Of a stretch of 34,083 bases of DNA, positions 10,374 to 24,757 are shown piece after piece; within the stretch, counting starts at the first letter, position 1, and each line of letters starts with the position of its first letter. The stretch is from the NCBI GenBank assembly GCA_013377075.1, contig JACABD010000003.1, positions 77,916 to 111,998 of the forward strand. The letters are read 5' to 3'. The position numbers and the translations under genes were made by a program. The stretch is from Geobacteraceae bacterium (GTDB lineage Bacteria; Desulfobacterota; Desulfuromonadia; Geobacterales; DSM-12255). Below the pieces are notes generated by a model that was not told where the DNA came from, searched no databases, and saw nothing but the letters and a program-made list of their open reading frames with translations.

Positions 10374-11597
10374 TCAGCGGTTTCCGGAAAGCCCCATTTT
10401 CTTCGACAACCTGTTCACAATGATCACGACGTCAGACCTGGATTCACCGCTTTTTATATTAATCGAGTGATCGCTACTCCCGTCCCAGGCGCCAAACCAC
10501 CCCCCCTCCGCAGGAGAGCCGTAACCGCTCCTGGCGCTAAGAAAATATTTCCCTGGAATAGGCACGGGGAATTTGAACCGGCCATCGGCACCGGTCGGCT
10601 CGGACCTGAACAGGGAGCGACCGGACATATTAGTTTTGTCGTAGAGGGCTGCATAGGCACCGGAAACAGGGTGGCCGTCAAGGTCTACAATTCGGCCCTC
10701 AATTATTCCCGGCAATAAAGCGGATGACTCAGCGCGTGACTTGACCATCTTCAGCCGAACCAGCGGTATGGCTGACGGAACAAAGCTCCCCTTGACAACA
10801 GTTACCGGGTTCCCTGGATAGAAACCGAGCAGGTCCTCTTTATGCAGAGGGCCTATATCAACACTGTTGTCAGACCTCAGCCGGGCCAGCAGATAGTACT
10901 CATCCGGCGACAGGTTGAGCACAAACTCACCATTGATATCAGTACGGACAACTGAGTGAAAATCGTCCCCCTTGAAACCTGAACCGCTCTTGGCATATGC
11001 ATAAACACCGACATTGGCAACGGGAACGCCATTGTGTGTCACCCGTCCGAAAATGCCGGTCCCCTTCGGAGAAGCAGTCGACGGTGGCAAAGGGACCTCT
11101 TCAAGTATCAGCGTAATCGCCTCGCTGGTCTCTGTCGACACAAGAAGCGGATTGCCTCCAAACCAGGCAAACCGGTCACCGGCTCGCCTTGGCCGGTTAA
11201 AATCACCATCAGGTCGCCAGTCGGCAGTCAGAAAGTACGAACCGGGTTCTGGTCTGAAGTTGGCAGTGCCAACGCCGATGGTATTGCCGGATAGTACCGG
11301 CGTTACATCTTCGACATGGCGACGCCATTCAATTCGGACTTTAGTCAGTGGAGCATCCTTCCATATCGTCCTGACAAGGTATGTTCCGGGCCTGGTCGTT
11401 GGCCTGGCCGACATCCTGCCAGTGCCAAGATAAATTTGCCCCTCAGCAGCATTCGTCTTCTCACCCTGAAGCACTGGGACGCTATCTCCCATCGAGTTTG
11501 CGGACAGCACCAACGATGAATTGAAAAGTAAGGTTAATGTTAAAGCCACCGCATTGGCGACTTGTCTAATTTTCAGCATATGAATTACCCGCCTCAT
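10374..11597 (-). CDS. secreted protein with multiple carboxypeptidase-regulatory-like domains
   Basis: Up to 407 residues. The first ATG (11597) overlaps the TGA of the upstream gene (ATGA). The second ATG at 11579 (MLKIRQVANAVALTLTLL) gives a neater signal peptide ending near LSA, with GAGGCGGG upstream, so either start is possible. Three beta-sandwich modules are suggested: about 55-165, 180-265 (GIFGRVTHNGVPVANVGVYA, DINGEFVLNLSPDEYYLLAR) and 300-395 (IEGRIVDLDGHPVSGAYAAL, GADGRFKFPVPIPGKYFLSA). It is clearly related in style to the next gene, including the G-Y-Y-L-x-A-R strand and the LGFYPGNPV/LGIYGGEMASPV block. Non-enzymatic periplasmic or surface partner of unknown function. Confidence 0.8.
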   Translation of the reverse strand: MRRVIHMLKIRQVANAVALTLTLLFNSSLVLSANSMGDSVPVLQGEKTNAAEGQIYLGTGRMSARPTTRPGTYLVRTIWKDAPLTKVRIEWRRHVEDVTPVLSGNTIGVGTANFRPEPGSYFLTADWRPDGDFNRPRRAGDRFAWFGGNPLLVSTETSEAITLILEEVPLPPSTASPKGTGIFGRVTHNGVPVANVGVYAYAKSGSGFKGDDFHSVVRTDINGEFVLNLSPDEYYLLARLRSDNSVDIGPLHKEDLLGFYPGNPVTVVKGSFVPSAIPLVRLKMVKSRAESSALLPGIIEGRIVDLDGHPVSGAYAALYDKTNMSGRSLFRSEPTGADGRFKFPVPIPGKYFLSARSGYGSPAEGGWFGAWDGSSDHSINIKSGESRSDVVIIVNRLSKKMGLSGNR

Positions 11598-14593
11598 GGA
11601 TAGGGGATGATGTAGCGTTTTTCACCGCTCCGGCTATAGGGAGACTTTCTCTTCTCTACATCGGCGTCCCACTCCAGCAGCCTGGCCTTGAGCTCTGCGG
11701 CTATCCCGGGGTTCTCTGCCACAACGTTGCGCGTCTCGCGCGGATCCACGGCCAGGTCGTAAAGCTCGGTGTCAACACTTGGATACAGCTTCCCGGTGAT
11801 GAAGCCGGGCCAGGAGACCTTTTCAAGCTGACGCGGGTTCTTGCGGTAAATCAGTTTCCACTTGTTTGTCCTAATGGCGATGTCACCGGACGGATATGCC
11901 TCAGGGGGGAACTCCTCCTGAAGCATCTTCTCGTATTCAATGATGGCCTGATCTTCAGATGGCGGATGATTTGGGGTCTGTGGATCGTGGAACTTGAATT
12001 CGAGGAAATAACGGCTCATCCAGTGCTCCCATAGCGGGATCCTGTCAATGAAGGCATATTCGCTCCCCTTGGCTCCGGCATCGCCACGCACCAGCGGCAT
12101 CAGGTCGATCCCCTGCATGTCTGCCGCTATTGGGATATTCAGATAACTGAGCAGTGTCGGCAGAATGTCTATGCCCTGGGTCTGGTCGGGAATCCGCTTT
12201 CCCGCGTACTTGCCATCCGGAAAGCGGATGATCAGGGCGTTTTTCAGTTCGGCTTCAGTAAGGTCAAAATTGATGAACATGTCACGTTCACCTAAGGTCT
12301 TGCCGTGCACCGAGTAAAGAACCAGAATGGTATTTTTCAGCAGACCGGTCTTTTCAAGTTTGTCGACCAGTTCACCGACAAACTTGTCAGTATAGTGGAC
12401 ACCGGCATCGTAGCGACCGTTGATGTAGGCAATATCTTCAGGGGTCAGCTTGTGAACCGGCTGGAAGCCCTGATAGTAGTTTCCGTTCCAGAGACGCATC
12501 AACACATCAATGGTAGGATCTTCCGGGGTTCCTTCGTTACCCGAGACCGGGAAGAATTTCTGCCAGAACGGTGTGTACCCCGGAGTATCGTACATGTACC
12601 TGTCTGGCGCAGGAACCGTTGCCGCATAAGGTGGGTGGAGAGTCCCGGGAGCTATCCAGAGGAAAAATTTCTTCTCCTTGTTTTTTTCGATCCACTCCAG
12701 GGATTCTGTCGGCACCACGCGCAGGGAAGAACCGCTACGGCGGCGCGACCAGAGGTATTCGTCGAACGATCTAGAGAAAACGTCACGGAGGTTGACTGTC
12801 TTTCCGGACTCACCGTCGAAACGCATGAAAAACTCGGGTGTGCTCAACACAGCAGCAGTGGTATAACCGTATGCCTTGAGTACCTCCGGCATTGTCCTGG
12901 CCGAGACAGAATCCTTGGTAATATCGAATGAGACCATGCCGTTGACGCGCGGATACTGGGATGTCAGCGCAGCCATCATCGCCGTTGGCGTCAGGTTGGT
13001 CTGGGCAATTGAGTTATCGAACATAACCGCCGACTTGGTCAAACGATCCATATTTGGCGTCGTATCACGTTTATAGCCGTTGATCCCCATATGATCGGGA
13101 CGCAGGCATTGTAGCGATACAAAGATGACGTTAGTGTTCTCGAATCCAGGAGTAGCAGCCTTCTTCTTGTACCCCTTTGCCTGCGAGTCGTAGACCGGGC
13201 TCAAGCCTGTCTCCCTCGGCATTGAAAGATCCTGTCCAAGGGTTTTGAACTTCGCAAACAGCTTCTGCTCAAGCTCGTATGCCAGACGCGGCTCTTTCTC
13301 AACCAGATTCTGTTGCTCTCCCGGATCCTTCACCAGATTGTAAAGCTCACGGCCTTTAGACTCGATTGTGTAGATAAACTTCCAGCCATCTTTGGTTGTG
13401 ACTGAGCGTTTGAAGGTAAAGAGGCGGTAGTCGGTCTCGGAATAGGTATCCTCGGCCACCGGTTCTCCATGGAGGGCAGGAACAAGGCTTTTGCCGCGCA
13501 TCTGCCTGGCAAGGGTATCATTCACCGGAACATCGAGCAGATCGAGGACGGTCGGCATCACGTTGATCGAGCTGACCCGATCAGGAATCGTCATCCCCCC
13601 TGCAACACCTGGGAGCCTGATCACCAGAGGCACATGCACCAGCTCTTCATAAAGGCTGAAACCATGGTCGAACCGCTTGTGCTCATGGAACTCTGTCCCA
13701 TGGTCAGCTGTCAGGACGAAGATCGTCTTCTCCATCAGCCCCATCCTGGTCAGTTCGGCAATAAACTTTTTAAAGCGACCATCTACCCGGTTGATCTTCT
13801 CGTCGTAGACCGCACGCCAGAATACCACATCCTCGTCGCGCATTGTGACGCTGCCCTTTGCGAGCCCCTCTTCACGAAGCGCTTCCTGTTCCTCGGCAGA
13901 ACCGGTGTACTTGCGGTCGTACTTCGGATCAACAAAACGGTAATCCAGTCCTTCAGCCGGGACATTCTGGCCGTGGGAGTCGTAGCCGTGCAGGAAGAGG
14001 AAAAACTTCTTCTCCTTGTTCTGCTCAACCCACTCAAGAGCCCGCGGCACACTCTGATCCATACCGCCGAACTTTGTCTTGTCATAGTAGGCATCAAAGC
14101 CGGAGCCATAACCAAAGATGGAGTTGACACCGGCATCGCCGGTAAAGCCGCCGGTTGCGTAGCCGTTCTTTTTGAGTACCTCGGCAAGTGTTACAATATT
14201 CGGAGAGAGCTTTTTCAGGTTGGTGATGACCTGCTTCTCAGGTGGGTCGTATTCGACGAACTTATTGAGAAGCCGATGCTCAGATGGGTAGTTGCCAGTG
14301 AACCAGGTCATGGATGCCGGCACAGTCCACGATGCTACTGACTCGACCGTAGAAAAGCTGAAACCGCTTTTGGCCATTGCATCAATGGTCGGCGTAATAT
14401 CGCGCGGATATCCAAGCGAATGTACGTGAGCCGCCTGCATCGCATCGAAACTGACAAAGACGATATTGTAGTCCTTGAATTTCAGCGGCATTATTTCTGC
14501 GGCATTAGCGAATCCCGCAATAGACAATATCAAAATAGCACTAACCTGAATCGTCACACACCGTTGGGATATCCAGCTGACATTCTTATTCAT
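11594..14593 (-). CDS. tandem sulfatase/alkaline-phosphatase-fold protein with degenerate second domain
   Basis: 999 residues from the ATG at 14593, chosen for its AAGGAGAG site; an upstream in-frame ATG at 14626 has no ribosome site. Signal peptide about 1-32 (AILILSIAGFANA). Domain 1 (about 40-450) has the metal-site Asp D50 (VSFDAM), a Thr at the nucleophile position (SWTVPA, T90; CxPxR sulfatases have Cys or Ser there), D297-H298 (TADHG) and H310. Domain 2 (about 485-985) keeps the fold (GYKRDTTPNMDRLTKSA, GIDILPTLLSYLNIP, ELYDLAVDPRETRNV) but has Q495, L534 and V762 at the three equivalent positions. Domain 1 could be a sulfatase or phospho-/phosphoglycerol-transferase-like hydrolase; the Thr favours the phosphotransferase side. 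Domain 2 is probably inactive. First gene of the operon with the two secreted proteins. Confidence 0.85.
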   Translation of the reverse strand: MNKNVSWISQRCVTIQVSAILILSIAGFANAAEIMPLKFKDYNIVFVSFDAMQAAHVHSLGYPRDITPTIDAMAKSGFSFSTVESVASWTVPASMTWFTGNYPSEHRLLNKFVEYDPPEKQVITNLKKLSPNIVTLAEVLKKNGYATGGFTGDAGVNSIFGYGSGFDAYYDKTKFGGMDQSVPRALEWVEQNKEKKFFLFLHGYDSHGQNVPAEGLDYRFVDPKYDRKYTGSAEEQEALREEGLAKGSVTMRDEDVVFWRAVYDEKINRVDGRFKKFIAELTRMGLMEKTIFVLTADHGTEFHEHKRFDHGFSLYEELVHVPLVIRLPGVAGGMTIPDRVSSINVMPTVLDLLDVPVNDTLARQMRGKSLVPALHGEPVAEDTYSETDYRLFTFKRSVTTKDGWKFIYTIESKGRELYNLVKDPGEQQNLVEKEPRLAYELEQKLFAKFKTLGQDLSMPRETGLSPVYDSQAKGYKKKAATPGFENTNVIFVSLQCLRPDHMGINGYKRDTTPNMDRLTKSAVMFDNSIAQTNLTPTAMMAALTSQYPRVNGMVSFDITKDSVSARTMPEVLKAYGYTTAAVLSTPEFFMRFDGESGKTVNLRDVFSRSFDEYLWSRRRSGSSLRVVPTESLEWIEKNKEKKFFLWIAPGTLHPPYAATVPAPDRYMYDTPGYTPFWQKFFPVSGNEGTPEDPTIDVLMRLWNGNYYQGFQPVHKLTPEDIAYINGRYDAGVHYTDKFVGELVDKLEKTGLLKNTILVLYSVHGKTLGERDMFINFDLTEAELKNALIIRFPDGKYAGKRIPDQTQGIDILPTLLSYLNIPIAADMQGIDLMPLVRGDAGAKGSEYAFIDRIPLWEHWMSRYFLEFKFHDPQTPNHPPSEDQAIIEYEKMLQEEFPPEAYPSGDIAIRTNKWKLIYRKNPRQLEKVSWPGFITGKLYPSVDTELYDLAVDPRETRNVVAENPGIAAELKARLLEWDADVEKRKSPYSRSGEKRYIIPYP

Positions 14594-14752
14594 TTTTCTC
14601 TCCTTGCCTCTCGGCTTCGGATGCAACTCTACTGTTTGAGGCCTAACGCGCCCATTGTTAACAAAACAGCAGAGTGCAGAACGACCCGAAGTTACCGGCG
14701 TAAATCCCGATTGTTACTTCGGGCTACAAATTTGGAGGTGAAATAATTAGAA

Positions 14753-15073
14753 TCAGACTGGTGATGCGCGTGAAGGGAATAAACGGATAATATTTAAACG
14801 TGGATTGATCTGTTCAACAGCTGTAGAAGTGTGAAAGGTTACAAACGTAAGTGGTTGTGGCAAAATATAGGGAGCAATGGTTATCGAGGTCAAGATTAAT
14901 GGCTTAATCTTGACATTATCCATATCGAGGTTATTGCTATCTGCACTATCAATATGAACATTAATAGCATCATGGTAATCTGAAAAATCCCAGGCATTTG
15001 AAATACCTATCCCGGAAATTGCGAATACCAGGAACATTGAGATTATGTAAGCATGGAACGGTCTTACCTTCAT
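14753..15073 (-). CDS. small secreted protein of unknown function
   Basis: 106 residues: a signal peptide or N-terminal anchor (about 8-27, AYIISMFLVFAISGIGISNA) and a short mature part with no cysteine and a tail LNIIRLFPSRASPV. I do not recognise a family. It lies downstream of the terminator that closes the metal operon, so it needs its own promoter. A GAGG lies about 11 bases before the ATG, which is rather far. Its reading frame and signal peptide make a real gene plausible, and small secreted proteins are often found beside heavy-metal efflux operons, but the assignment is tentative. Confidence 0.5.
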   Translation of the reverse strand: MKVRPFHAYIISMFLVFAISGIGISNAWDFSDYHDAINVHIDSADSNNLDMDNVKIKPLILTSITIAPYILPQPLTFVTFHTSTAVEQINPRLNIIRLFPSRASPV

Positions 15074-15212
15074 GTAACCATATCCTCGAAGCGAGCGGCT
15101 TTTAGCTTGCAGGGCTAGTTTTAATTAGGCCATATCCCTAGGCAATCAGTCAACAATATATTATTTATTTCCCCCCAATTAAATAAGTTAATAAAATGCT
15201 TTAAAAAAAACA

Positions 15213-15239
15213 GGGACAATTAGAACATCTAATTATCCC
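15213..15239 (-). terminator. intrinsic terminator of the metal-efflux operon
   Basis: 12-bp stem with one mismatch (GGGACAATTAGA / TCTAATTATCCC) and a 3-base loop. On the minus strand it is followed at once by TGTTTTTTTTAA, 23 bases past the stop of the His/Met-rich protein gene. Confidence 0.88.
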
Positions 15240-15262
15240 CCTGAAAAATCAAATGGAAAAAT

Positions 15263-15730
15263 CTACTTCACCGTATACCAGAACTTTGTGCTTCTTACCT
15301 TTCCGTCCGGCAGCTTGAACCGGCACATGACACCGTATTTACCCTTGGCTTTCATCTCAAAATCAGCACCGAAATGACCATGCATTGCCGGGAGATCCTT
15401 TGTCTGCTCGGTTTTATCAGGAGCCTGTACCTTTATCGTCACATCGCCCTTTTCTACCGACTTGCCGGTCTTCATGTCATTGAAAGAGACGGCAATGTGA
15501 TGGGTCTCCTTCACCCCTTTGGGCATCTCCATCCCCATATCCTTCATGGCCTCGGCCATGGTCTTGACATTGAAAGTAGCCTTGATACCATCTACCACTT
15601 CCTGATGGGCGTTGTTCGGAGAACTGTTACCGAGATAATTCATACCGTGACCGGTGTGGTCATGCTCTGCGGCCAGTACAGGGACTGCTGCCAGTGCTAC
15701 CATCATTGCTGCGAATACGAGTTTTTTCAT
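15263..15730 (-). CDS. His/Met-rich periplasmic protein, YtkA/FixH-like
   Basis: 155 residues from the ATG at 15730, which follows a perfect AAAGGAGAATCG site; an upstream in-frame ATG at 15769 falls inside the inverted-repeat element and is rejected. Signal peptide 1-20 (VALAAVPVLAA). The mature part has likely copper ligands: H23, H25, H28, M30 (EHDHTGHGM), a Met-rich MKDMGMEMP (62-70), H77-H78, and M116-H117-x-H119 (PAMHGHF). The second half reads as one beta-sandwich (IKVQAPD..., FEMKAKGKYGVMCRFKLPDG), like YtkA-like/FixH-type domains. It is the last gene of the Cus operon, directly before a terminator. A periplasmic copper or silver chaperone for CusCBA is the natural inference, although it is not CusF by sequence. 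Confidence 0.75.
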   Translation of the reverse strand: MKKLVFAAMMVALAAVPVLAAEHDHTGHGMNYLGNSSPNNAHQEVVDGIKATFNVKTMAEAMKDMGMEMPKGVKETHHIAVSFNDMKTGKSVEKGDVTIKVQAPDKTEQTKDLPAMHGHFGADFEMKAKGKYGVMCRFKLPDGKVRSTKFWYTVK

Positions 15731-15766
15731 TTTCGATTCTCCTTTAGGAATGATCAGCCAGGTTTT

Positions 15767-15896
15767 CATAACTCCTCCTGTCCTCCCCTTATCTTAAGGG
15801 GAGGGACGCTATAAAAAGTTTTCAGGCAAAACTTTCACCTCTCTCCATCAGTTACGTCCCCCCTTTTAAGCTAAGAGGGGGACAGGAGGCGTTATG
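15767..15896. repeat. 130-bp MITE-like element with 42-bp terminal inverted repeats
   Basis: The left arm (15767-15808, CATAACTCCTCCTGTCC...GGGACG) and right arm (15855-15896, ACGTCCCC...GGACAGGAGGCGTTATG) are near-complete reverse complements, with a few mismatches. Each arm also folds on itself through CCCCTTA/TAAGGGG-type pairing. Between them lies a perfect 8-bp hairpin AAAGTTTT-CAGGC-AAAACTTT (15815-15835). No coding capacity. It occupies almost the whole spacer between CusA and the His/Met-rich gene. Confidence 0.8.
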
Positions 15897-15907
15897 GGCC
15901 GTTGTTG

Positions 15908-18900
15908 TTAGTGCTTCATACCGCTATACTTCAAAGTTCCCTTCTTCAACTCCCGCTTTTTCATCAACACAAATATCACCGGCGTCATAATAAGCACATG
16001 CACCGCCGACGAAATCATGCCGCCGATCATCGGTGCGGCAATCGGTTTCATCACATCCGCGCCTGTTCCTGTTGACCACATGATAGGGATCAGGCCGAGG
16101 AGCGCCACTGCCACGGTCATCAGCTTCGGTCTTAAGCGGAGGACAGCCCCTTCAAAGGTGGCATCGTAAATATCCTGCTCGGTAATCACCCCGTTTTTCA
16201 GCTTTTTATCCAGTGCCTCGTGCAGATAGATGACCATGACAACCCCGGTCTCGACAGCTATGCCGTATAGGGCTATGAATCCGACCCAAACAGCCACTGA
16301 CAGGTTGTAACCCAGCGCTGAGACCAGATAGACACCGCCCACAAGGGCAAAGGGGACGGAGAGCATGACCATGCTCGCCTCAAGAGCCGAATGGAAGGTG
16401 AAGAAGAGCAGGATGAAGATGATCACCATACCGAGCGGAATGAGGATCTGCAGGCGTGCCTTGGCTCTGATCTGGTTCTCCCACTGACCTGACCAGGCGA
16501 CATAATAGCCGGGAGGAAGTTTCAGATTTTTCTCCAGCACCTGTTTTGCCTCGGTGACAAAGCCCCCCATGTCACGGCCACGGACATTGAGGAATACCAG
16601 GGATCGAAGCAGCCCCCCTTCACTGTTGATTTCCGGCGCGCCGGTGGAGATTTTCAGCTTCGTTACCATGGAGAGCGGCACCTGTGCCCCCTCCATACCG
16701 GCAACGAGAATTCGGCGGATTGCCGGGATGTTGTCACGGTAGTCACGGAGATAGCGAATGCGGATCGGGAAACGGTTGCGCCCTTCTACAGTGGTTGAGA
16801 GCATTTCGCCGCCAAGGGCTGTCTCGATGACGTCCTGAATGTCACCGACGTTGACGCCGTAGCGCGCAGCAGCCTCCCGGTCGACGTCGATATCTATATA
16901 ATTGCCGCCGGTAACCCGTTCGGCAACCACATCGGCAGCGCCATGAATCGGCTTGAGGATCGTTTCAGCCTGAATTGCCAGATCCTTTAGCACATTGAGG
17001 TCGTTGCCAAAGATCTTAACGCCAAGGTCGGTACGCACTCCGGTGGAGAGCATGTTGATGCGGTTGATAATCGGCTGGGTCCAGCCGTTACGCACTCCGA
17101 TCTGCTGGAGTTTAGAATCCAGCTCGGCAACGATGTCAGCTTTTTTGAGCCCCGGTCGCCACTTATCCTTGGGCTTAAGGATGATGATACTTTCGAACAT
17201 GGATACCGGTGCCGGATCGGTGGAGGTCTCGGCGCGGCCGACCTTACCAAGGACATGCTCAACCTCTGGCACGCTCTTGATAATGGTATCCTGCACCTGT
17301 ATCAAACGTTTCGCCTCGGTGATGGAGATATTGGGAAGGGTCACCGGCATATAAAGGAGCGAACCCTCATCAAGCGGCGGCATGAATTCAGTCCCCAACT
17401 TCATGAACATGGGGACGGCAATGGCAAGGGCAATGATATTGAGAGCAATAGTGGTCTTTTTCCAGACCAGTACCCAGCGAATGACCGGCGAATAGAGTCT
17501 GATGAAGAAGGTAGAAACCGGATTGGCGCTCTCAGGCGGCATTTTGCCCCGCATGAAGAAGTACATCAAAACCGGAACGAGAGTAATGGCGATGATTGCC
17601 GAACCCATCATGGAGAAGGTCTTGGTGAAGGCCAGCGGGTGAAAGAGCTTACCCTCCTGTCCTTCCAGCATGAAGACCGGCACAAAGGAGAGAACAATGA
17701 TGGCAAGGGAGAAGAAGATAGCCCGGCCAACCTGTTTAGCTGAGGTGATGACTACATCAAGCCGCTTTGCATCCCGCTCTTCAGGGGGCATCTCCGAAAG
17801 GTGCCTGTAGCAGTTCTCCACCATGATGACCCCGGCATCCACCAGTACACCGATAGCAATGGCAATGCCACCAAGGGACATGATGTTGGAGCTGACGCCG
17901 AGCAGTTTCATGGAGATAAAGGCAATCAGCACCGATACCGGCAGGGTCAGAACAATGACCAGTGCGCTTCGCCAGTGGAGGAGGAAAAGAAGAATTACCA
18001 GAGAAACAACGATAGACTCCTCCAGCAGGTTTTTCTTTAAGGTATCGATAGCCCGGGCTATCAGGTCGGATCGATCATAGGCAACCATAATCTTAACCCC
18101 TGGGGGCAGACCTTTCTCCAACTCCTTGATTTTGACCTTGACCCGGTCAATGACATCCTTGGCATTTTCGCCATAGCGCATAACCACAATGCCGCCAACG
18201 GCCTCACCCTCGCCGTTCATGTCGAGCATGCCACGGCGGATTGCGCCACCCATCTGCACTGTGCCGAGATTTTTCAGGTAGATCGGTGTGCCGCGTTTGT
18301 CAGCAGCGATGACGATGTTTTCCAGATCGGCCTTGGACTTGACATAGCCGCTCCCCCTGATCAGGTACTCGGCATCAGCCTGCTCGATCAGCTTGCCGCC
18401 GACGTCCTTGTTGGAGACCTTCACCGCCTCCATGACCTTGCTTACCTTGATGTTATAGGAAAAGAGCTTGGCAGGATCGAGGTCAATCTGATATTCCCGC
18501 ACCAGACCACCGATGGAGGCGACCTCGGCCACTCCCTGGACGGTGTTTAACTGGTAGCGGACAAACCAGTCCTGTAGCGTGCGCAACTGCTCAAGGTCGT
18601 ACCCCTTACCTTCGATGGTGTACCAGAAAACATGACCGACACCGGTACCATCGGGCCCAAGGGTAGGTACGACACCTGGCGGCAACAGGGATGCGGCATA
18701 ATTGAGCCGCTCCAGCACCCGTGTTCTCGCCCAGTAGATGTCAGCCTTATCCTCGAAGATGACGTAAATCATGGAGAAGCCAAAAGCTGATGAAGCCCGT
18801 ACAGCGCGGACCTGCGGCAGTCCCTGCAGGTTAACCGCCAGTGGATAGGTAACCTGGTCCTCCACTACTTGTGGCGAACGTCCGGGGTAGTCGGTAAAGA

Positions 18901-19045
18901 CAATCACCTGGTTGTCGGAGAGATCCGGAATGGCATCCACCGGCGTCCGGTAGACCGCCCATGTCCCCCAGACAATGATCAGACCGAAGAGCATCAGGAC
19001 AATGACCCGGTTGCGGGCGGAATATTCAATAATTTTTTCGATCAT
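15908..19045 (-). CDS. cusA: CusA-type Cu(I)/Ag(I) efflux RND pump
   Basis: 1045 residues, full length for heavy-metal RND transporters. There are twelve membrane helices in the usual 1+5 / 1+5 arrangement, with N-terminal IIEYSARNRVIVLMLF and the helix-4 block GGIAIAIGVLVDAGVIMVEN (392-411), which carries the proton-relay acid D403. The three methionines that bind copper in E. coli CusA (M573, M623, M672) correspond to M566 (LLYMPVT), M616 (PVSMFES) and M665 (INMLSTG), with 50- and 49-residue spacings identical to E. coli. This favours a monovalent Cu/Ag substrate over Zn/Co/Cd. Inner-membrane engine of a tripartite pump with the CusB- and CusC-like proteins encoded just upstream. Ribosome site AGGGA. 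Confidence 0.95.
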   Translation of the reverse strand: MIEKIIEYSARNRVIVLMLFGLIIVWGTWAVYRTPVDAIPDLSDNQVIVFTDYPGRSPQVVEDQVTYPLAVNLQGLPQVRAVRASSAFGFSMIYVIFEDKADIYWARTRVLERLNYAASLLPPGVVPTLGPDGTGVGHVFWYTIEGKGYDLEQLRTLQDWFVRYQLNTVQGVAEVASIGGLVREYQIDLDPAKLFSYNIKVSKVMEAVKVSNKDVGGKLIEQADAEYLIRGSGYVKSKADLENIVIAADKRGTPIYLKNLGTVQMGGAIRRGMLDMNGEGEAVGGIVVMRYGENAKDVIDRVKVKIKELEKGLPPGVKIMVAYDRSDLIARAIDTLKKNLLEESIVVSLVILLFLLHWRSALVIVLTLPVSVLIAFISMKLLGVSSNIMSLGGIAIAIGVLVDAGVIMVENCYRHLSEMPPEERDAKRLDVVITSAKQVGRAIFFSLAIIVLSFVPVFMLEGQEGKLFHPLAFTKTFSMMGSAIIAITLVPVLMYFFMRGKMPPESANPVSTFFIRLYSPVIRWVLVWKKTTIALNIIALAIAVPMFMKLGTEFMPPLDEGSLLYMPVTLPNISITEAKRLIQVQDTIIKSVPEVEHVLGKVGRAETSTDPAPVSMFESIIILKPKDKWRPGLKKADIVAELDSKLQQIGVRNGWTQPIINRINMLSTGVRTDLGVKIFGNDLNVLKDLAIQAETILKPIHGAADVVAERVTGGNYIDIDVDREAAARYGVNVGDIQDVIETALGGEMLSTTVEGRNRFPIRIRYLRDYRDNIPAIRRILVAGMEGAQVPLSMVTKLKISTGAPEINSEGGLLRSLVFLNVRGRDMGGFVTEAKQVLEKNLKLPPGYYVAWSGQWENQIRAKARLQILIPLGMVIIFILLFFTFHSALEASMVMLSVPFALVGGVYLVSALGYNLSVAVWVGFIALYGIAVETGVVMVIYLHEALDKKLKNGVITEQDIYDATFEGAVLRLRPKLMTVAVALLGLIPIMWSTGTGADVMKPIAAPMIGGMISSAVHVLIMTPVIFVLMKKRELKKGTLKYSGMKH

Positions 19046-19062
19046 TTATTGAATCCCTGGTT

Positions 19063-19147
19063 GAAGGCTGAAGACTGAAGGTAAAAGCTTAAGATTCTGA
19101 TCAACCAAAAGGTTGTGACTTACCTTCAGCCTATAACCTTCAGCCTT
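19063..19147. repeat. GGCTGAAGG-type inverted repeat in the cusB-cusA spacer
   Basis: The left arm GAAGGCTGAAGACTGAAGG (19063-19081) pairs imperfectly with the right arm (19120-19147, ACCTTCAGCC twice). A short CAACC-AAAA-GGTTG hairpin (19102-19115) lies in the middle. The unit GGCTGAAGG/CCTTCAGCC recurs several times. It fills most of the spacer and ends just before the cusA ribosome site. Confidence 0.7.
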
Positions 19148-19159
19148 CGGCCTATTAAC

Positions 19160-20545
19160 CTACATCTTCATATCATCCATCTTCAACGTATCTTTCTTCG
19201 CCGGTGCAGCCGGATTCCCACCCTTGGCATCAGGCTTGGCTCCACCTGTATGCTGACTGTGATCCACAGTACCGCCACCCTTGAGCTGTGATTCGGAATC
19301 GATCAGATAGCCACCGGAAACTGCTACCTTGTCACCTTGTTTGAGCCCGGAAAGTATCTGCACCTTTTCTTCAACCCGCTCTCCGACCTGCACGTCACGG
19401 GGTTCGAACATCCCCGCTGCAGTCTCAATCCAGACCACCTGCCGTTTGCCGGTATCAATAACAGCCGTTACCGGGATGACAATCCCCTTGACCAGCGGAA
19501 CTTTGATAATGGCATTAACGAACATGTCCGGCTTCAGCCGCATTCCCGGATTTGCCATCTCGACGCGAGCCTTGACTGTGTGGGTTTTCGGATCATGGAA
19601 CGGGTAGATGAAGCTGATCGTTCCCCGTGATGAAACCTTATGTTCGGCTGATGAGTTGATTTCCACCTGCTGCCCGACCCTTATGTAGGGAACCTCATTT
19701 TCAAAAACATCGATTTCAATCCAGACTTTTGACAGGTCGGCGATATTGAATAGTACCTCACCTGTGTTGACATACTGCCCCTGCTGTACCATTTTTTCGA
19801 TTACAATCCCGGAAAGGGGTGTGTAGATCGGGAGCCTGATATTCGGCTTGCCGGCCTTTTCCAGGGCAGCGATCTGACTCTCCTTGACACCGAAGAGCAT
19901 CAGACGCTGCTTTGACGATGCAACCAGACCGTCGCCACTCTGGGAGATGGAGGGTATCGGAGAGCTTTTCAACTGGTCACGGCTCTTTATAGCAAGAAGG
20001 TACTCCTGCTGAGTCGACAGTAGATCAGGTGAATAGACCTCAGCCACCGGTTTATCCTTGGAGACGATTGCGCCGACGCTATTGACATGGAGCTGGTCGA
20101 TGCGACCGGCGATCCAGGCAGTAACCTTGGCCTGGCGCGTCTGGTCGAACTGGACGATACCAACGGCATTTATCTCCTTACTGAGTGTGCCGTTTTTAGC
20201 CTCGACAGTGGCAACATTGGCCATGACCCGCTGTGTCGGCGAAAGTGAGACATGGCCGAGCATATCGACCTGTGCTTTTTGCTCGGCAGTCTGTGGAGCA
20301 CCGCCAGCTGAGGCATCGTCGATTTTCTTGATCAGTTCCATGCCGCAGATAGGGCAGGTTCCCGGCTTGTCCTTGACGATGAAGGGGTGCATGGAGCAGG
20401 TCCATTGCTGCACCTTGTGTTCAAGCTTGGAATGGCCGTGGCCGTCCTTTTCAAACCAGCCTGTTTTATAGAGCCAACCGCCAGTAGCTGCCAGTAGGGC
20501 AACAATCAGGATTAACGGGAGTAGTATTTTCTTTTTTAAAACCAT
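19160..20545 (-). CDS. cusB: CusB-like periplasmic adaptor with N-terminal heavy-metal-binding domain
   Basis: 461 residues. An N-terminal anchor (about 6-27) is followed by a HGHSKLEH segment and a heavy-metal-binding domain (48-75: WTCSMHP at 48-54, CPICGMEL at 64-71). The membrane-fusion core then follows: a barrel-sandwich region near 140-265 (VTAWIAGRIDQLHVNSVGAI; IYTPLSGIVIEKMVQQGQYV) and a beta-barrel region (WIEIDVFENEVPYI). The C-terminal 40 residues are a low-complexity tail rich in His, Lys and Met (DHSQHTGG..., KMDDMKM). Family role: links the RND pump to the outer-membrane channel and hands metal to it. An AGAGG site precedes the ATG. Upstream is cusC-like and downstream cusA, with repeat-filled spacers on both sides. 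Confidence 0.93.
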   Translation of the reverse strand: MVLKKKILLPLILIVALLAATGGWLYKTGWFEKDGHGHSKLEHKVQQWTCSMHPFIVKDKPGTCPICGMELIKKIDDASAGGAPQTAEQKAQVDMLGHVSLSPTQRVMANVATVEAKNGTLSKEINAVGIVQFDQTRQAKVTAWIAGRIDQLHVNSVGAIVSKDKPVAEVYSPDLLSTQQEYLLAIKSRDQLKSSPIPSISQSGDGLVASSKQRLMLFGVKESQIAALEKAGKPNIRLPIYTPLSGIVIEKMVQQGQYVNTGEVLFNIADLSKVWIEIDVFENEVPYIRVGQQVEINSSAEHKVSSRGTISFIYPFHDPKTHTVKARVEMANPGMRLKPDMFVNAIIKVPLVKGIVIPVTAVIDTGKRQVVWIETAAGMFEPRDVQVGERVEEKVQILSGLKQGDKVAVSGGYLIDSESQLKGGGTVDHSQHTGGAKPDAKGGNPAAPAKKDTLKMDDMKM

Positions 20546-20595
20546 GTGAACACCTCTAGGGATAGCATTTTTGAATCTCGCACTACTTCAAAGCT

Positions 20596-20688
20596 AACCC
20601 CTCTAAATCTCCCCTTAACAAGGGAGACTTCAAAGCAAATCCTCCCCTGCTTGTCTCCTCCCCTGTCAAGGGGAGGTCGGGAGGGGTT
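20596..20688. repeat. nested hairpin repeat in the cusC-cusB spacer
   Basis: An outer pair AACCCCTC/GAGGGGTT (20596-20603 and 20681-20688) encloses two hairpins: TCTCCCCTT-AAC-AAGGGAGA (20608-20627, one bulge) and a perfect CCTCCCCT-GTCA-AGGGGAGG (20657-20676). Similar pyrimidine-rich CTCCCCTT/AAGGGGAG units make up the element at 15767-15896. No U-tract follows, so it is not a classic terminator. Confidence 0.7.
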
Positions 20689-20714
20689 GGGGTTGATGGG
20701 CGTTATGACACGCA

Positions 20715-21998
20715 CTACCTAAGCTCCACCCCGACAGCCGCCTCAAGCTTTGCCAGGGCAATCATATATTCAGCCTTTGAATCGTACAGCTCTCTCTCAA
20801 AGGTGAACAGGTTCATACGGCCATCAAGCAGGGTGAGGAAGTCGACCTTGTTAACCCGGTAGCTGATGAGCGCCGACTCCAGCGACTGCTCCGCCTGGGG
20901 AACCATACCGCCGCTGTAGAGCTCCACCAGCTTGCGGCGGCGTTCCAGCTGGGCAAGGTTATCATTTATACTGTAGGAAATGCTGTTCTTAAGTCCGTTC
21001 AATTCTTCAGTCGCCATGTTTGTCTCCGAAGTCGATTCTGCCAGCATGGCATGACGGCGTTCCCGCTGAAATGGCAGATTAAAGGTCACACCGACTGAAA
21101 ACATGTCGAAGCCAGGATCAGTGACCATATCGGTGGAGATCCTCTCACGCTGCATATACTCGAAAGAAAGATTGAAATCTGGATAAAACTCTTTCTCAGC
21201 CAGACGATGAGATGCTTCACCTTTGCGGGTCAATATGCTCAGGCTTTTTACCTGGGGACGATTCTCCAGCGCCTTACGATTCAGCTCCTCAGCAGAGAAT
21301 TTAAGTTGCGGCAGGCTGAAATCAGGGATCGGTCCCACCGGAGTATCTCCTGGACGATAAAGCAGATAATTGAGATTAGCCTCAAGACTCTTTCGCTGCT
21401 GCCCAAGGTTAATCTGCATGTCGAGCATTTTTGATTTTTCCAGCCCGGCCTTGTAGATATCCTGCTGCACCCCTTGCCCGACCGAATATTTCGATTCGGC
21501 AATGGTCACAAAATCGGTCAGTATGCCGAGGTTTTTAGAAACTATCTCCAGCGCTCTGTCCACGGCATAGAGCTGGTAGTAGGTCTCATTTACCATCCGT
21601 GTCAGTTCCAGTTTGCGCTCTTCCAGAGTCCATTTATAGGATTCCGCCTCATAACCGGCAATCTCCTGCTTCAGGTCACGCTTTCCCCAGAACGGAATAG
21701 CTTGCGTGATGCCGATCACCTTTGCGGTCTGCGGATCCCTGTCAAATGCCGTTGGACGGCGCACCATGAGACTTTGCAGCTTAAGCATAAGCATCGGATC
21801 TTCAAGGGATGCAGCCTGCTTTGCCTTGCTGGCGTACATCTGCCAGCGGGCCCGGGATGATTTAAGTTCGGGATTATTTTTGAGTGCTGTTTCAACAAGT
21901 GTGGATAGTGATTCTGGAGATGGAATATCAGAGGCAGCGGCCAGGGTGGTTGTTAAAATAAGTGTGGCTAATATTGTCATCCTGATTTTCAGCTTCAT
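20715..21998 (-). CDS. cusC: CusC/TolC-family outer-membrane efflux protein
   Basis: 427 residues. Signal peptide about 1-22 (MTILATLILTTTLAAAS). The body is an alternating helical-barrel protein with two OEP repeats: LVETALKNNPELKSSRARWQ (about 34-53) opens repeat 1, and LNRKALENRPQVKSLSILTR opens repeat 2 (about 240-259), with ALNNxxEL/ALENRPxxK-type motifs. No lipobox Cys is seen after the signal, unlike E. coli CusC. Role: outer-membrane exit duct for the Cu/Ag RND pump. It is the first of the three efflux components in transcription order and follows the ABC ATPase gene by about 90 bp, so the two modules are probably one transcript. GAGGTGCAGG precedes the start. Confidence 0.9.
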   Translation of the reverse strand: MKLKIRMTILATLILTTTLAAASDIPSPESLSTLVETALKNNPELKSSRARWQMYASKAKQAASLEDPMLMLKLQSLMVRRPTAFDRDPQTAKVIGITQAIPFWGKRDLKQEIAGYEAESYKWTLEERKLELTRMVNETYYQLYAVDRALEIVSKNLGILTDFVTIAESKYSVGQGVQQDIYKAGLEKSKMLDMQINLGQQRKSLEANLNYLLYRPGDTPVGPIPDFSLPQLKFSAEELNRKALENRPQVKSLSILTRKGEASHRLAEKEFYPDFNLSFEYMQRERISTDMVTDPGFDMFSVGVTFNLPFQRERRHAMLAESTSETNMATEELNGLKNSISYSINDNLAQLERRRKLVELYSGGMVPQAEQSLESALISYRVNKVDFLTLLDGRMNLFTFERELYDSKAEYMIALAKLEAAVGVELR

Positions 21999-22086
21999 CC
22001 TGCACCTCGCGTCTACTCATCTGAACCATTAATTATTTTATAAATTTAACACAGAAACATTAGATAGCCAGTCACTACACCAACAT

Positions 22087-22752
22087 TCAGACAATTACCC
22101 CATCCCTCAAAACAATACTTCTGTCAGCATAGCGGCCGTTCTCCGGGTTATGGGTCACCATGACCACTGTCTGACCGGCATCGTTCAGCTCGCGAAAGAG
22201 AGCCATAACCTCTTCGCTGGTTTTCGAATCCAGATTGCCGGTCGGCTCATCGGCCAGCAGAATTTTCGGGCTGTTAACTATTGCCCTGGCAATGGCCACC
22301 CGCTCCTGTTCGCCACCGGAGAGCTGATTAGGGAGACGATCAAGTTTTCCTCCCAGACCGACCCGCTCCAGCGCCTGCCTGGCCGCACTTTTCCTGGCCT
22401 CAGCAGCCATCTTCACTATGGCCAGTGGCAGCATGACATTCTCCATGGCAGTCAGATAAGGGATCAGGTGGAACGACTGAAAGACAAAACCGAGATTCTG
22501 CGCCCGGAAATCAGCCAGTTTCTCGCTGGAGAGCTGATAGAGCTTCACCCCGGCCATCTCCACATCCCCTTCTGTCGGATGATTCATTCCGCCAAGAACT
22601 GAAAGCAGCGTGCTCTTGCCTGAGCCGGACTGCCCCATGATGGTGATAAATTCTCCGACCTCGATGCTTATATCAACACCACTTAGCGCTTCAACAATAT
22701 CATCGCCGCTGCGGTACTGCTTCTTTACATTTTTAATTTCAATAAGTGCCAT
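22087..22752 (-). CDS. ABC transporter ATPase, MacB/LolD type
   Basis: 221 residues from the ATG at 22752 (GGAG six bases upstream). Walker A GQSGSGKS (40-47), Q-loop FVFQSFHL (89-96), signature LSGGEQERVAIARA (144-157), Walker B ILLADEP (164-170) and H-loop VTHNPE are all present. It is the LolD/MacB-like class that pairs with FtsX-type permeases. It lies 34 bp after its permease gene and just before cusC. In P19/Ftr-type iron systems (Campylobacter cj1660-cj1663, from memory) an FtrD-like protein, one or two such permeases and this ATPase form a module, and the same set is seen here. Energises the permease rather than importing through it. Confidence 0.93.
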   Translation of the reverse strand: MALIEIKNVKKQYRSGDDIVEALSGVDISIEVGEFITIMGQSGSGKSTLLSVLGGMNHPTEGDVEMAGVKLYQLSSEKLADFRAQNLGFVFQSFHLIPYLTAMENVMLPLAIVKMAAEARKSAARQALERVGLGGKLDRLPNQLSGGEQERVAIARAIVNSPKILLADEPTGNLDSKTSEEVMALFRELNDAGQTVVMVTHNPENGRYADRSIVLRDGVIV

Positions 22753-22786
22753 GTTTAACTCCAGAATCAAAAACCGTAAACCGTAT

Positions 22787-23947
22787 TTAAAGAGCTCTTA
22801 AAGCCTCTGTCGGATCCATCTTGCTGGCATGCAACGCCGGGTACAAACTAGCCAACACCCCCAAAGTCAGCGCCAGTCCGACCGAGCCAAAAGCAATTGC
22901 ACTGTCCCAGACCAGATGGGCATTCTTGCTCTCCGCCATGAACGGCAGCGCCAGCTTTGCTCCCCCCATACCGACTCCGTAGCCGAGAAACCCTGCCAGC
23001 AGGCTGACCAGAGCAGCCTCCAGCAAAATGATCCGCATGATGTGGCTTTTCCTGAAGCCGATTGCTCGAAAGACGCCGATTTCCGTTGTCCGCTCGTTGA
23101 CGCTCCCCATCATGGTGACAAAGACTATCAGCGAGCCGATAAAAATAACTACAGCAGCCATTGCATAGGAGAAACGTTTAAACTGATCAAGGGCCTTCAG
23201 TCGCCCCTCTACAACCTGCTGGATAGCAGATACTTTGGCATCGGGCAGTTTCTCTGCAATCTGCAGTACCATGTCACCGATTGGACAGCCTGAGCAGAGG
23301 GCGGCAACCTCGGCAAGGGTTATCTTCCCCTCCTTGCCAAGAATTTTCTGAGCCCTGGGGAGTGCTGCAAAGATGAGGGCGTCATCCTGGGAACCGGTCT
23401 GTTCGAGGATCCCGGCCACAATAAACTTTTCTCCCTTCAGCTCAAGTTGGTCGCCGGTTGAAACATTGAGAACCTTTGCAGCATCGCTACCGAGAAGAAG
23501 TTCGCTTACATTCTGTGGGGTTTGACCAAACACCTTCCACCACTGCTTCAACTTCAGTTCGCTGTCAAAATTCACCCCAACAAGGAGCACATCATGGTTT
23601 GCAACCTCGATCCCGCCAACAACTTTTGGCGAAATGACAGAAACATTTTTGTGATTGGCAATGGTCTTTATCCGGGCAAGATCGGACTCCTTTATCTCCC
23701 GCTGATCGAAGCTGACACCGCCAAGACTGATGCCGCCGTAGTTCATGGCAAGGCCGTTGCTCTGTGGCGTGATAAGAATATTGGCGCCAAATTCATCCAT
23801 CTTCCGCTCGATATCGCTGGACATGGAGCGGGTCAGGGTCACCAGGGTAACAATCGTGGCAATGCCGACTGTCAGGCCGATTGTCAGAAAAGCCATCTTC
23901 GCTTTGCGCCTCTTCAGGTTATTGATCGAGATGGTATGCAGCTTCAT
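22787..23947 (-). CDS. FtsX/MacB-type ABC permease with periplasmic CxxC
   Basis: 386 residues with four membrane helices in the FtsX layout: one at about 18-40, a large periplasmic domain 45-265, then helices near 270-290, 315-335 and 350-370. The C-terminal ALHASKMDPTEALRAL is the standard ending, and ERTTEIGVFRAIGFRKSHIM is the coupling motif. The periplasmic domain contains CSGCPIGD (C218, C221), unusual for MacB/LolC-type permeases and suited to metal or redox chemistry. The gene start coincides with the stop of the FtrD-like gene (23947), so the two are translationally coupled. Likely works with the ATPase gene downstream. Confidence 0.88.
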   Translation of the reverse strand: MKLHTISINNLKRRKAKMAFLTIGLTVGIATIVTLVTLTRSMSSDIERKMDEFGANILITPQSNGLAMNYGGISLGGVSFDQREIKESDLARIKTIANHKNVSVISPKVVGGIEVANHDVLLVGVNFDSELKLKQWWKVFGQTPQNVSELLLGSDAAKVLNVSTGDQLELKGEKFIVAGILEQTGSQDDALIFAALPRAQKILGKEGKITLAEVAALCSGCPIGDMVLQIAEKLPDAKVSAIQQVVEGRLKALDQFKRFSYAMAAVVIFIGSLIVFVTMMGSVNERTTEIGVFRAIGFRKSHIMRIILLEAALVSLLAGFLGYGVGMGGAKLALPFMAESKNAHLVWDSAIAFGSVGLALTLGVLASLYPALHASKMDPTEALRAL

Positions 23948-24405
23948 TAGAAGTATCTCGCACCGTTCTTGATATCTTCAACCTTGACTGAAAGAGTGCT
24001 CCCGTTAACCTGGCTGGGGAGGTAACCGGGATTGCAGCCACCTGTAGCGTTCGGACCGAGTTTACTGATGGCGAACTTCTGGTTGCAGTTTTTACAGTTC
24101 ATCCTGTCCCCAGCCTGCTCGTAACCTTTTTTCGACTTGTAACAGGAGTCACAGGCGTCAAAAGCGGTCTTGTAGCTGCCGTCAGTTGCCTTGGCAGCAA
24201 AAAAGGTAATCTCCTTGCCGCCCTCCTCTAACTTGTAAAAATGCGCCTTACCATCTTTTAGCCTGGCAGTATCTATGGTGACAATACCGCCGCTCACCTT
24301 CGCCTTCTCGTATTTACCGAGGGAAAAGGCATTAACCGCCATAACTCCGGCAAACAGAACAGTCAGAACAGCCACTGCAACAAATGCTAATCCTTTGATC
24401 TTCAT
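23947..24405 (-). CDS. FtrD-like (DUF2318) membrane-anchored CxxC protein
   Basis: 152 residues from the ATG at 24405 (AAAGGAGAG site); a longer in-frame reading from 24498 overlaps the upstream gene and is rejected. An N-terminal anchor or signal spans about 5-27. The mature part has the family's cysteine pattern C85-x2-C88 (ACDSCYKSKKGY), C104-x2-C107 (MNCKNCNQKF) and C124 (TGGCNP). These match my memory of FtrD-like/DUF2318 proteins of ferrous-iron (Ftr) and P19 loci, where a metal or Fe-S role is proposed. Its stop overlaps the permease start by one base. The FTR1 permease and P19 protein of the full system are not in the window. Confidence 0.85.
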   Translation of the reverse strand: MKIKGLAFVAVAVLTVLFAGVMAVNAFSLGKYEKAKVSGGIVTIDTARLKDGKAHFYKLEEGGKEITFFAAKATDGSYKTAFDACDSCYKSKKGYEQAGDRMNCKNCNQKFAISKLGPNATGGCNPGYLPSQVNGSTLSVKVEDIKNGARYF

Positions 24406-24406
24406 T

Positions 24407-24592
24407 TTACTCTCCTTTAGCTTTGTCAGCGGCGCAGCCGCCGCCCTTATTGGCACAGCACCCCTTGGATACATACTGGCTTCTGCCACCAGGGTCACCG
24501 CTTTCGCCGGTCCTGACCCTGAATGCCAGATTCACCAGCAGGGCTACCGCAATTACAACCAGAAGCGTTGTCGATACGATCTTGTATCTCAT
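24407..24592 (-). CDS. small Cys-rich membrane-anchored peptide, head of the metal operon
   Basis: 61 residues. One membrane helix (about 5-25, IVSTTLLVVIAVALLVNLAF) is followed by a short tail holding KGCCANKGGGC (C45, C46, C53). A textbook AAAGGAGGATTTGCA ribosome site supports translation. Its stop lies one base before the FtrD-like gene start, so the two are coupled. I do not know a named family. The Cys cluster outside the membrane and the position suggest a metal- or thiol-binding accessory. It is the first gene after the divergent control region. Confidence 0.75.
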   Translation of the reverse strand: MRYKIVSTTLLVVIAVALLVNLAFRVRTGESGDPGGRSQYVSKGCCANKGGGCAADKAKGE

Positions 24593-24727
24593 TGCAAATC
24601 CTCCTTTGCATTTTCACAGATATATATCAACTATTGTGCCAAACGAGACCATATCGGTAACAGACTGTTTTCTTTATTGTTTAATGATGGACTGACTTCT
24701 AGTGGAAAGAATTGGGATGGAATTAAG

Positions 24728-24757
24728 GAGAATATTCTCTCACTGTGTAGAATATTC
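24728..24757. promoter_or_regulatory. tandem AGAATATTC operator candidate
   Basis: A perfect 12-base palindrome GAGAATATTCTC (24728-24739) and a second AGAATATTC (24749-24757) whose palindromic cores are centred exactly 20 bp apart, i.e. two helical turns. It lies about 140 bp upstream of the Cys-rich peptide gene. The regulator is unknown. Confidence 0.45.

Follow-up and report, generated by a model that had tools for sequence, protein, structure and literature searches.

An FtrD/ABC module in a Cus pump operon of a Geobacteraceae bacterium: a probable role in copper or silver handling

Introduction

Why would an ATP-binding cassette (ABC) module named after iron systems share an operon with a copper pump? 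This question is raised by a stretch of 34,083 nucleotides from a Geobacteraceae bacterium (GenBank assembly GCA_013377075.1, contig JACABD010000003.1, positions 77,916 to 111,998 of the forward strand; the whole stretch is called the window here), in which a predicted operon combines a small FtrD-like (DUF2318) protein, an FtsX/MacB-type permease and an ABC ATPase with the CusC, CusB and CusA proteins of an efflux pump. The biochemical function of DUF2318/FtrD proteins and their ABC partners is unsettled, and their names derive from iron systems. An earlier description made from the sequence alone, the original prediction, regarded the ABC genes as a P19/Ftr module in which a Cus pump had taken the place of the permease FTR1 and of P19, and it suggested a task in copper handling or metal-redox stress. 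Our comparison with related loci supports the suggested copper task: the ABC module very probably acts together with the Cus pump in the handling of copper (or silver), as in many genomes the two have common neighbourhoods and a common regulatory site. On this genomic evidence a copper (or silver) role is well supported, and an iron role is not supported.

The eight-gene operon

All eight open reading frames (ORFs) run in the same direction, from 24592 to 15263 on the minus strand, and their positions and family matches bear out the predicted series of same-strand genes from a Cys-rich peptide to a His/Met-rich protein:

24407..24592, minus strand: 61-residue protein with an anchor and the Cys-rich tail GCCANKGGGC, HMA domain absent (ORF listing; comparison with full-length HMA proteins)
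23947..24405, minus strand: small FtrD-like protein of 152 residues (PF10080, 1.8e-31; Cys 85, 88, 104, 107 and 124 invariant)
22787..23947, minus strand: FtsX/MacB-type permease with CSGCP (C218, C221) in the outer domain (FtsX and MacB_PCD; LolE/MacB fold)
22087..22752, minus strand: ABC ATPase of the LolD/MacB type (ABC_tran; start codon ATG at 22752, or TTG at 22770 for a longer form)
20715..21998, minus strand: CusC-like outer-membrane channel (OEP, PF02321)
19160..20545, minus strand: CusB-like adaptor with an N-terminal heavy-metal-binding domain (HlyD_D23 and HMBD)
15908..19045, minus strand: CusA-type Cu(I)/Ag(I) resistance-nodulation-division pump (TIGR00914, 1185 bits; M566, M616 and M665 as the triad)
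15263..15730, minus strand: His/Met-rich protein with a predicted Ig-like fold (ATG start at 15730, or 15769 for a longer form; alignment of 26, structure model, Foldseek)

The stop codon of the peptide gene is separated by 1 base from the ATG of the FtrD gene, and the FtrD and FtsX reading frames overlap. In the 88-bp gap between the ATPase gene and cusC, where a promoter or terminator might part the ABC half from the Cus half, terminator-like, sigma70-like, operator-like and sigma54-like sites were all sought and none was found. We infer that the eight genes form a single transcript. The sigma70 promoter scan was dropped as evidence, as 11 sites were found and 12.0 expected. The FtrD gene most likely starts at the ATG at 24405; the GTG at 24498 was considered less likely, as was the TTG at 22770 for the ATPase, since later ATG codons (24405 and 22752, respectively) are available. 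At E ≤ 0.001, no match in Pfam or NCBIfam was obtained for the Cys-rich peptide or the His/Met protein. The best NCBIfam matches of the ATPase, LolD and MacB, both scored under the family cut-offs.

A tandem palindrome and a sigma54-like element upstream of the module

Upstream of the first gene, two elements form a putative switch:

24730..24757, minus strand: operator-like tandem palindrome GAATATTC-N12-GAATATTC (exact)
24626..24641, minus strand: sigma54-like -24/-12 element TGGCACAATAGTTGAT (TGGCAC-N5-TTGAT; 0 mismatches to the motif used)

The sigma54-like element follows the operator-like palindrome after 88 bp and ends 33 bp before the first ATG. The window was compared with 99 FtrD neighbourhoods of its class (Desulfuromonadia), which were picked by hand, mostly one or two per genus, among the matches listed; L134 was left out as it overlaps L050, and in 39 of the resulting 100 loci the sequence on one side is shorter than 9 kb. 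When up to 2 mismatches and a spacer of 8 to 16 were allowed, 79 of the 100 loci had a tandem palindrome in the 1.5 kb upstream of FtrD, compared with 7 of 2000 mononucleotide shuffles. In 61 of these 79 loci the operator is followed, no more than 260 bp downstream, by a sigma54-like site with 0 or 1 mismatches (19 of 2000 shuffles). The spacing between the two is mostly 78 to 81 or 87 to 90 bp, i.e., it has two settings that differ by roughly one turn of the helix. In the genome to which the window belongs, the exact tandem element occurs once, at the operon, and four other sites have 2 mismatches.

A further 41 operator-like sites were present in the loci. By manual tally, 27 of them precede CusC (they overlap the start of the longest ORF or lie at most 300 bp from it); the His/Met gene and the kinase gene are each preceded by 3 and FtsX by 1, and 7 precede another gene or none. 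Relatives in which the gap between the ATPase gene and CusC is longer often have an operator before CusC. Separating signals of the kind considered in the original prediction thus do part the two halves in relatives, yet they place both under the same control, and none was found in the gap in the window. In G001, a genome of the same genus, an exact copy of the palindrome lies between the genes for CusF and the His/Met protein, beside those for a cupredoxin and a multicopper oxidase. No description of the switch (tandem GAATATTC with a sigma54-like promoter) was found in the open-licence literature, as judged by title and start of the abstract. Visual inspection also showed, a short way upstream of the operator in the window, a 19-bp inverted repeat with 8-bp arms, AACTTGCCACTGGCAAGTT (24789-24771, minus strand), which might serve as a terminator or as the site of a second regulator.

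Association of the module with Cus genes

In 39 of the 100 neighbourhoods, a CusA gene (at least 350 bits) lay no more than 10.5 kb from FtrD; among the 61 with 9 kb or more on each side, 27 had one. The value expected by chance is about 1.5% (33 CusA-family genes over the cut-off in about 46 Mb), a rough yardstick from the bacterium's own taxonomic family only, and as the loci are related no p value is given. Any Cus gene was present within the same distance in 47 of the 100 loci and in 32 of the 61 with full flanks. The FtsX gene follows FtrD in 87 to 88 of the 100 loci. Outside the class, 20 of the 67 genomes with a match were analyzed, mostly the best-scoring ones: a CxxCP motif, the form of the CSGCP in the window, was present in all 20 permeases, FtrD adjoined in 19 loci, and CusA or CusB lay beside the module in 9. 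The 80 named loci, which are the best 80 of 399, overlap with the other genomes and so are no independent replicate; they contained CxxCP in 80, an operator-like site in 70, FtrD in 70, the HMA gene upstream in 54 and CusA in 47 cases.

Three variations of the layout were observed. The HMA-FtrD pair stands without FtsX and ATPase in L059, L060, L061, L062, L064, L065 and L067, and a conserved hypothetical gene comes next in all of these except L062. In L106, L112, L113, L119, L120, L125, L127, L128 and L129, the gene directly after that of the ATPase encodes a small membrane protein whose C-terminus has a motif resembling a zinc ribbon; in the one scanned, the zinc-ribbon match was below the Pfam cut-off. 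A Rhodoferax metagenome bin (L235) contained FtsX, FtrD, ATPase, CusC, kinase, regulator and operator, pointing to contamination or transfer.

Comparison with P19 loci

In the bacterium's own genome (95% complete), one FtrD-like match was found and no match to FTR1 or P19, which confirms the predicted absence of the latter two. Within the class, FtrD was present in 180 of 277 genomes, compared with 9 of 271 for P19 and 13 of 271 for FTR1. FtrD without FTR1 or P19 is therefore the rule in this class, and this survey speaks against the tie of the FtrD/ABC set to P19/Ftr loci from which the original prediction had started. None of the 100 loci contained P19 or FTR1, partly due to the cut-off, as the FtrD matches listed end at about 109 bits and the FtrD of the one P19 locus scanned scored 101 bits; the genome-wide counts are unaffected.

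The nine P19 loci of the class (L155 to L163) have the architecture FTR1, P19, large FtrD, FtsX, FtsX and ATPase, with FtrD adjoining P19 in all nine. Their FtrD ORFs comprise 481 to 518 residues, compared with 152 in the window, and the one scanned has a YHS domain in addition to the FtrD domain. Two FtsX-type permeases were present in eight of the nine loci (the ninth, L162, is cut by the contig end), whereas the window has one. The FtrD proteins of the P19 loci matched that of the window with 40 to 50 bits only. The CxxCP motif was found in all 88 module permeases above 300 bits and in none of 17 permease pieces from P19 loci. The five Cys columns of FtrD were invariant in all 100 loci (alignment numbering, from the GTG, is 31 higher). 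In a tree of the FtrD domain, which has 123 columns, 128 rows and long branches and was used for the P19 group and two genus pairs only, the P19 copies formed one separate group with a support of 100/100. One operator-like site each was noticed in two P19 loci, L156 (1 mismatch) and L161 (2 mismatches).

Of the features of P19/Fet systems, the window thus contains the five-Cys FtrD/DUF2318 protein and lacks FTR1 and P19, the second permease and the large FtrD with YHS domain. An FtsX core, a MacB-type outer domain and a LolD/MacB-type ATPase were all found, as in type VII ABC systems. The structure model of the permease matched the folds of LolE and MacB, and C218 and C221 are located within the domain between its first two long membrane helices. 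Because the P19 loci differ in architecture, in CxxCP and in the FtrD group, the window module is a sister system to P19/Fet and not an iron locus with swapped parts; it belongs to a separate family of HMA chaperone, FtrD, FtsX and ATPase that is widespread in the class. The notion that Cus replaced FTR1 and P19 in an iron locus was rejected on the same grounds: such loci are rare in the class (9 of 271 genomes), are built differently and carry a separate FtrD group.

The HMA protein and its Cys-rich tail

In 80 of the 100 loci, the gene directly upstream of FtrD encodes an HMA protein that is anchored at its N-terminus and ends in a Cys-rich tail; all 3 representatives scanned contained the Pfam HMA domain. 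Among 87 HMA proteins, 41 contain the motif GMTCGSC, 16 a close variant and 30 another form, and exactly three Cys are present in the last 32 residues of 74. Anchor and Cys tail without HMA domain were found in the window (61 residues), in G001 (65 residues) and in G002 (56 residues), and a full HMA protein precedes FtrD in G003, which belongs to the same genus. In the FtrD tree, G001 is the partner of the window (98/90) and G003 that of G002 (100/97), so that the HMA domain was apparently lost twice in this genus (three of four genomes; relatives L036 to L038). The fact that anchor and tail were kept while the domain went suggests that the Cys tail may work on its own. The first gene product is indeed Cys-rich as predicted, but according to the genus comparison it is not simply a Cys-rich peptide but what is left of a chaperone with an HMA domain. 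Longer HMA proteins, of 287 to 321 residues, are encoded upstream of FtrD in other families of the class (L105, L106, L109, L111, L128). The one scanned, from L105, has a SurA-like region after the HMA domain, suggesting a fusion of chaperone and foldase.

The Cus pump and the His/Met-rich protein

CusA matched TIGR00914 with 1185 bits (curated cut-off, 701), and its score was 1058 bits against CusA of Escherichia coli and 640 bits against the CzcA-like pump ZneA. M566, M616 and M665 align opposite the Cu(I) methionine triad of E. coli CusA, which we take to be M573, M623 and M672. Of 31 CusA relatives above 1000 bits, 28, 27 and 21 contained the three motifs of the triad in the fixed spellings searched. 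No ORF of the operon matched CusF. A copper island in G001 comprises CusF, the His/Met gene, a cupredoxin, a multicopper oxidase and CusA. The CusA triad and the HMA, CusF, cupredoxin and multicopper oxidase genes in the neighbourhoods point the same way, to copper or silver.

The model of the His/Met protein (mean pLDDT, 82) shows an Ig-like domain, with low confidence for the first 37 residues. Eight PDB matches at E ≤ 0.001 were obtained: FetP/P19 and FtrA (four chains), PmoD, CrdA of Helicobacter (two) and one DUF4426 protein, whose job is unassigned; CopC came next at 0.013. As identities were 12 to 14%, these matches concern the fold only, which in the model resembles that of periplasmic copper proteins.

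A candidate regulator pair

Near FtrD, an NtrC-type regulator (at least 550 bits) was encoded in 36 and a histidine kinase (at least 350 bits) in 45 of the 100 loci, and 34 other regulators are 68 to 84% identical to the copy in L049. Kinase and regulator genes are not local to the window operon, and their orthologues lie together elsewhere in the same genome (G000:C24). The kinase matched with 549 bits and the regulator in two pieces with 66 and 68% identity, other long matches listed for this genome being at most 49% identical. An N-run lies inside this regulator gene (L190:5965-7176), so that its integrity cannot be judged. The Pfam domain Sigma54_activat was found in one regulator orthologue. 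At the sequence level, the parts expected of a sigma54/NtrC regulon, namely a -24/-12 element, tandem sites and a sigma54-activator regulator in the genome, are all present. Because of the co-location, we infer that the kinase/NtrC-type pair acts on the palindromes.

Discussion

The observations as a whole are best explained by a copper/silver envelope-defence operon that is one layout of a conserved regulon, an interpretation that we regard as likely. Within it, the ABC module may relay Cu(I) as a thiolate, driven by an engine of the MacB/Lol type. Periplasmic Cu(I) would activate the membrane kinase, and its NtrC-type partner would then bind the palindromes, so that sigma54 polymerase would transcribe module and pump together. 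The anchored HMA/Cys-tail protein would hold Cu(I) as a thiolate and hand it on to FtrD and to the CxxCP site of FtsX. ATP hydrolysis would power a MacB/Lol-type conformational stroke of the outer domain, by which Cu(I) would be delivered to CusB/CusA (or the His/Met protein) and expelled through CusC. In the lineage of the window, which has lost the HMA domain, the first binding step would fall to the Cys tail alone. We put forward only tentatively, at somewhat less than an even chance, the more far-reaching proposal of a new class of ATP-powered periplasmic copper relay, consisting of HMA/Cys-tail protein, FtrD and a CxxCP-bearing MacB/Lol-type ABC transporter, which feeds a Cus pump and has its own copper-sensing sigma54/NtrC regulon across the class, with the HMA domain lost apparently twice in one genus and the Cys tail as the working part.

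Three other explanations were weighed. The ABC module might be a thiol-redox engine that provides the periplasm with reducing power or a thiol compound and maintains metal sites (the CxxC pairs of FtrD, CusB/CusA, copper proteins) in the reduced state, without moving copper itself. A relay of reducing power from FetBCD through FetA is predicted, and two CXXC motifs in DUF2318 are described, in the available part of PMC10783030, and FtrD and FtsX carry conserved CxxC motifs here; however, the commonest partner of the module is an HMA metallochaperone, and we consider this explanation unlikely, though deserving of attention. The LolE and LolD/MacB proteins, which are the top fold and profile matches of FtsX and ATPase, might instead indicate an exporter that frees a metal-binding lipoprotein or peptide, e.g., the Cys-tail protein, from the membrane, so that copper would be involved indirectly. 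As the invariant CxxCP would then have no evident use, this appears improbable. Finally, an iron module of the P19/Fet type could be part of a Cus operon by chance or since copper stress damages iron-sulfur proteins. FtrD, FtsX and ATPase are homologous to FetA, FetBC and FetD, which support iron-limited growth in Campylobacter according to the accessible text of PMC10783030. We give this explanation very little credence, as P19 and FTR1 were not found in the own genome and are rare in the class, FtrD group and architecture are separate, and the operator is shared with Cus.

The need for the homologous FetA-FetD proteins in iron-limited growth of Campylobacter (PMC10783030, as far as its text was available) also weighs against the copper/silver interpretation, and so do several of our own results. 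No Cus gene lies within 10.5 kb in 53 of the 100 loci, 29 of them with full flanks. FtsX is missing in 11 of the 100 loci (in L121 at the contig end), including seven HMA-FtrD pairs, and conversely FtsX, ATPase and Cus genes occur without FtrD nearby in the named loci L209, L228 and L246. As the parts of the module are thus separable, any mechanism must account for HMA-FtrD and FtsX-ATPase standing apart, including in named Geomonas and Citrifermentans loci. The Cus genes of the window have no operator of their own, so that co-transcription is assumed, and the pairing of operator and regulator comes from neighbourhood only. The canonical -12 sequence is TTGC, whereas the element described here mostly has TTGA. 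Of the 20 loci from outside the class, only 2 contained the operator, both at 2 mismatches, and 2 of the 9 P19 loci also have a single site each. Moreover, the loci are related, and the shuffle controls for the palindrome and the sigma54-like site therefore overstate independence.

Cus efflux pumps, type VII ABC systems and FtrD proteins are all known; here such parts make up a real, conserved copper/silver system. With CusCFBA of E. coli, which is controlled by CusRS, the window shares CusA with its Met triad, CusB and CusC; it differs by the absence of CusF from the operon, the HMBD of the adaptor, the ABC module and the sigma54-like promoter. The permease fold and the ATPase family are those of the type VII systems MacAB-TolC and LolCDE, but the operon has no MacA gene, no lipoprotein substrate is known, and the CxxCP is extracytoplasmic. 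The fetMP-fetABCDEF (P19) system of Campylobacter jejuni and its homologues are similar in the five-Cys DUF2318/FtrD, the FtsX/MacB-type permease and the ABC ATPase. According to the available text, this system contains FTR1, P19, FetA with eight transmembrane segments and YHS, two permeases and thioredoxins, a layout that agrees with the P19 loci of the class (PMC10783030). The window has a 152-residue FtrD, a single CxxCP permease, an HMA partner and a Cus pump instead.

In gut Firmicutes, DUF2318 and HMA-DsbD_2-DUF2318 proteins were placed computationally in a CsoR copper regulon, as stated in the accessible part of PMC4938975. HMA and DUF2318 are paired there as in our loci, and a copper regulon was inferred, but the proteins are fused or stand-alone and belong to another phylum and regulator; the portion of the paper available mentions no ABC/Cus module. 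For Geobacter sulfurreducens, czcABC (GSU2135-2137) was described with a PII gene, and FtrD/ABC genes are not named in the available part of that paper (PMC7726332). No description of the HMA-FtrD-ABC-Cus combination was found in the open-licence literature, again going by title and opening of the abstract, where the DUF2318-copper link in the accessible text of PMC4938975 was the only related one. Our analysis ties a large DUF2318/FtrD family to copper by its neighbours, its conserved thiols and a shared regulatory site, which yields a directly testable function. It also points to a sigma54 system that may sense copper in metal-reducing bacteria and related organisms. A protein annotated as FtrD should not for that reason be assigned to iron uptake.

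Operon end and flanking genes

At the downstream end of the operon, one further element was listed:

15212..15240, minus strand: candidate intrinsic terminator with a 13-pair stem and T-run, directly 3′ of the His/Met gene, the longest stem listed

The terminator scan was at chance level (12 sites compared with 11.6 in shuffles), so that this candidate is weak. Directly downstream, at 14753-15073, lies an ORF of 106 residues without Pfam or NCBIfam match, which has a relative in L041 only among the loci. Farther downstream, at 11594-14626, lies an ORF of 1010 residues that, judged by eye, resembles two sulfatase-type halves in tandem.

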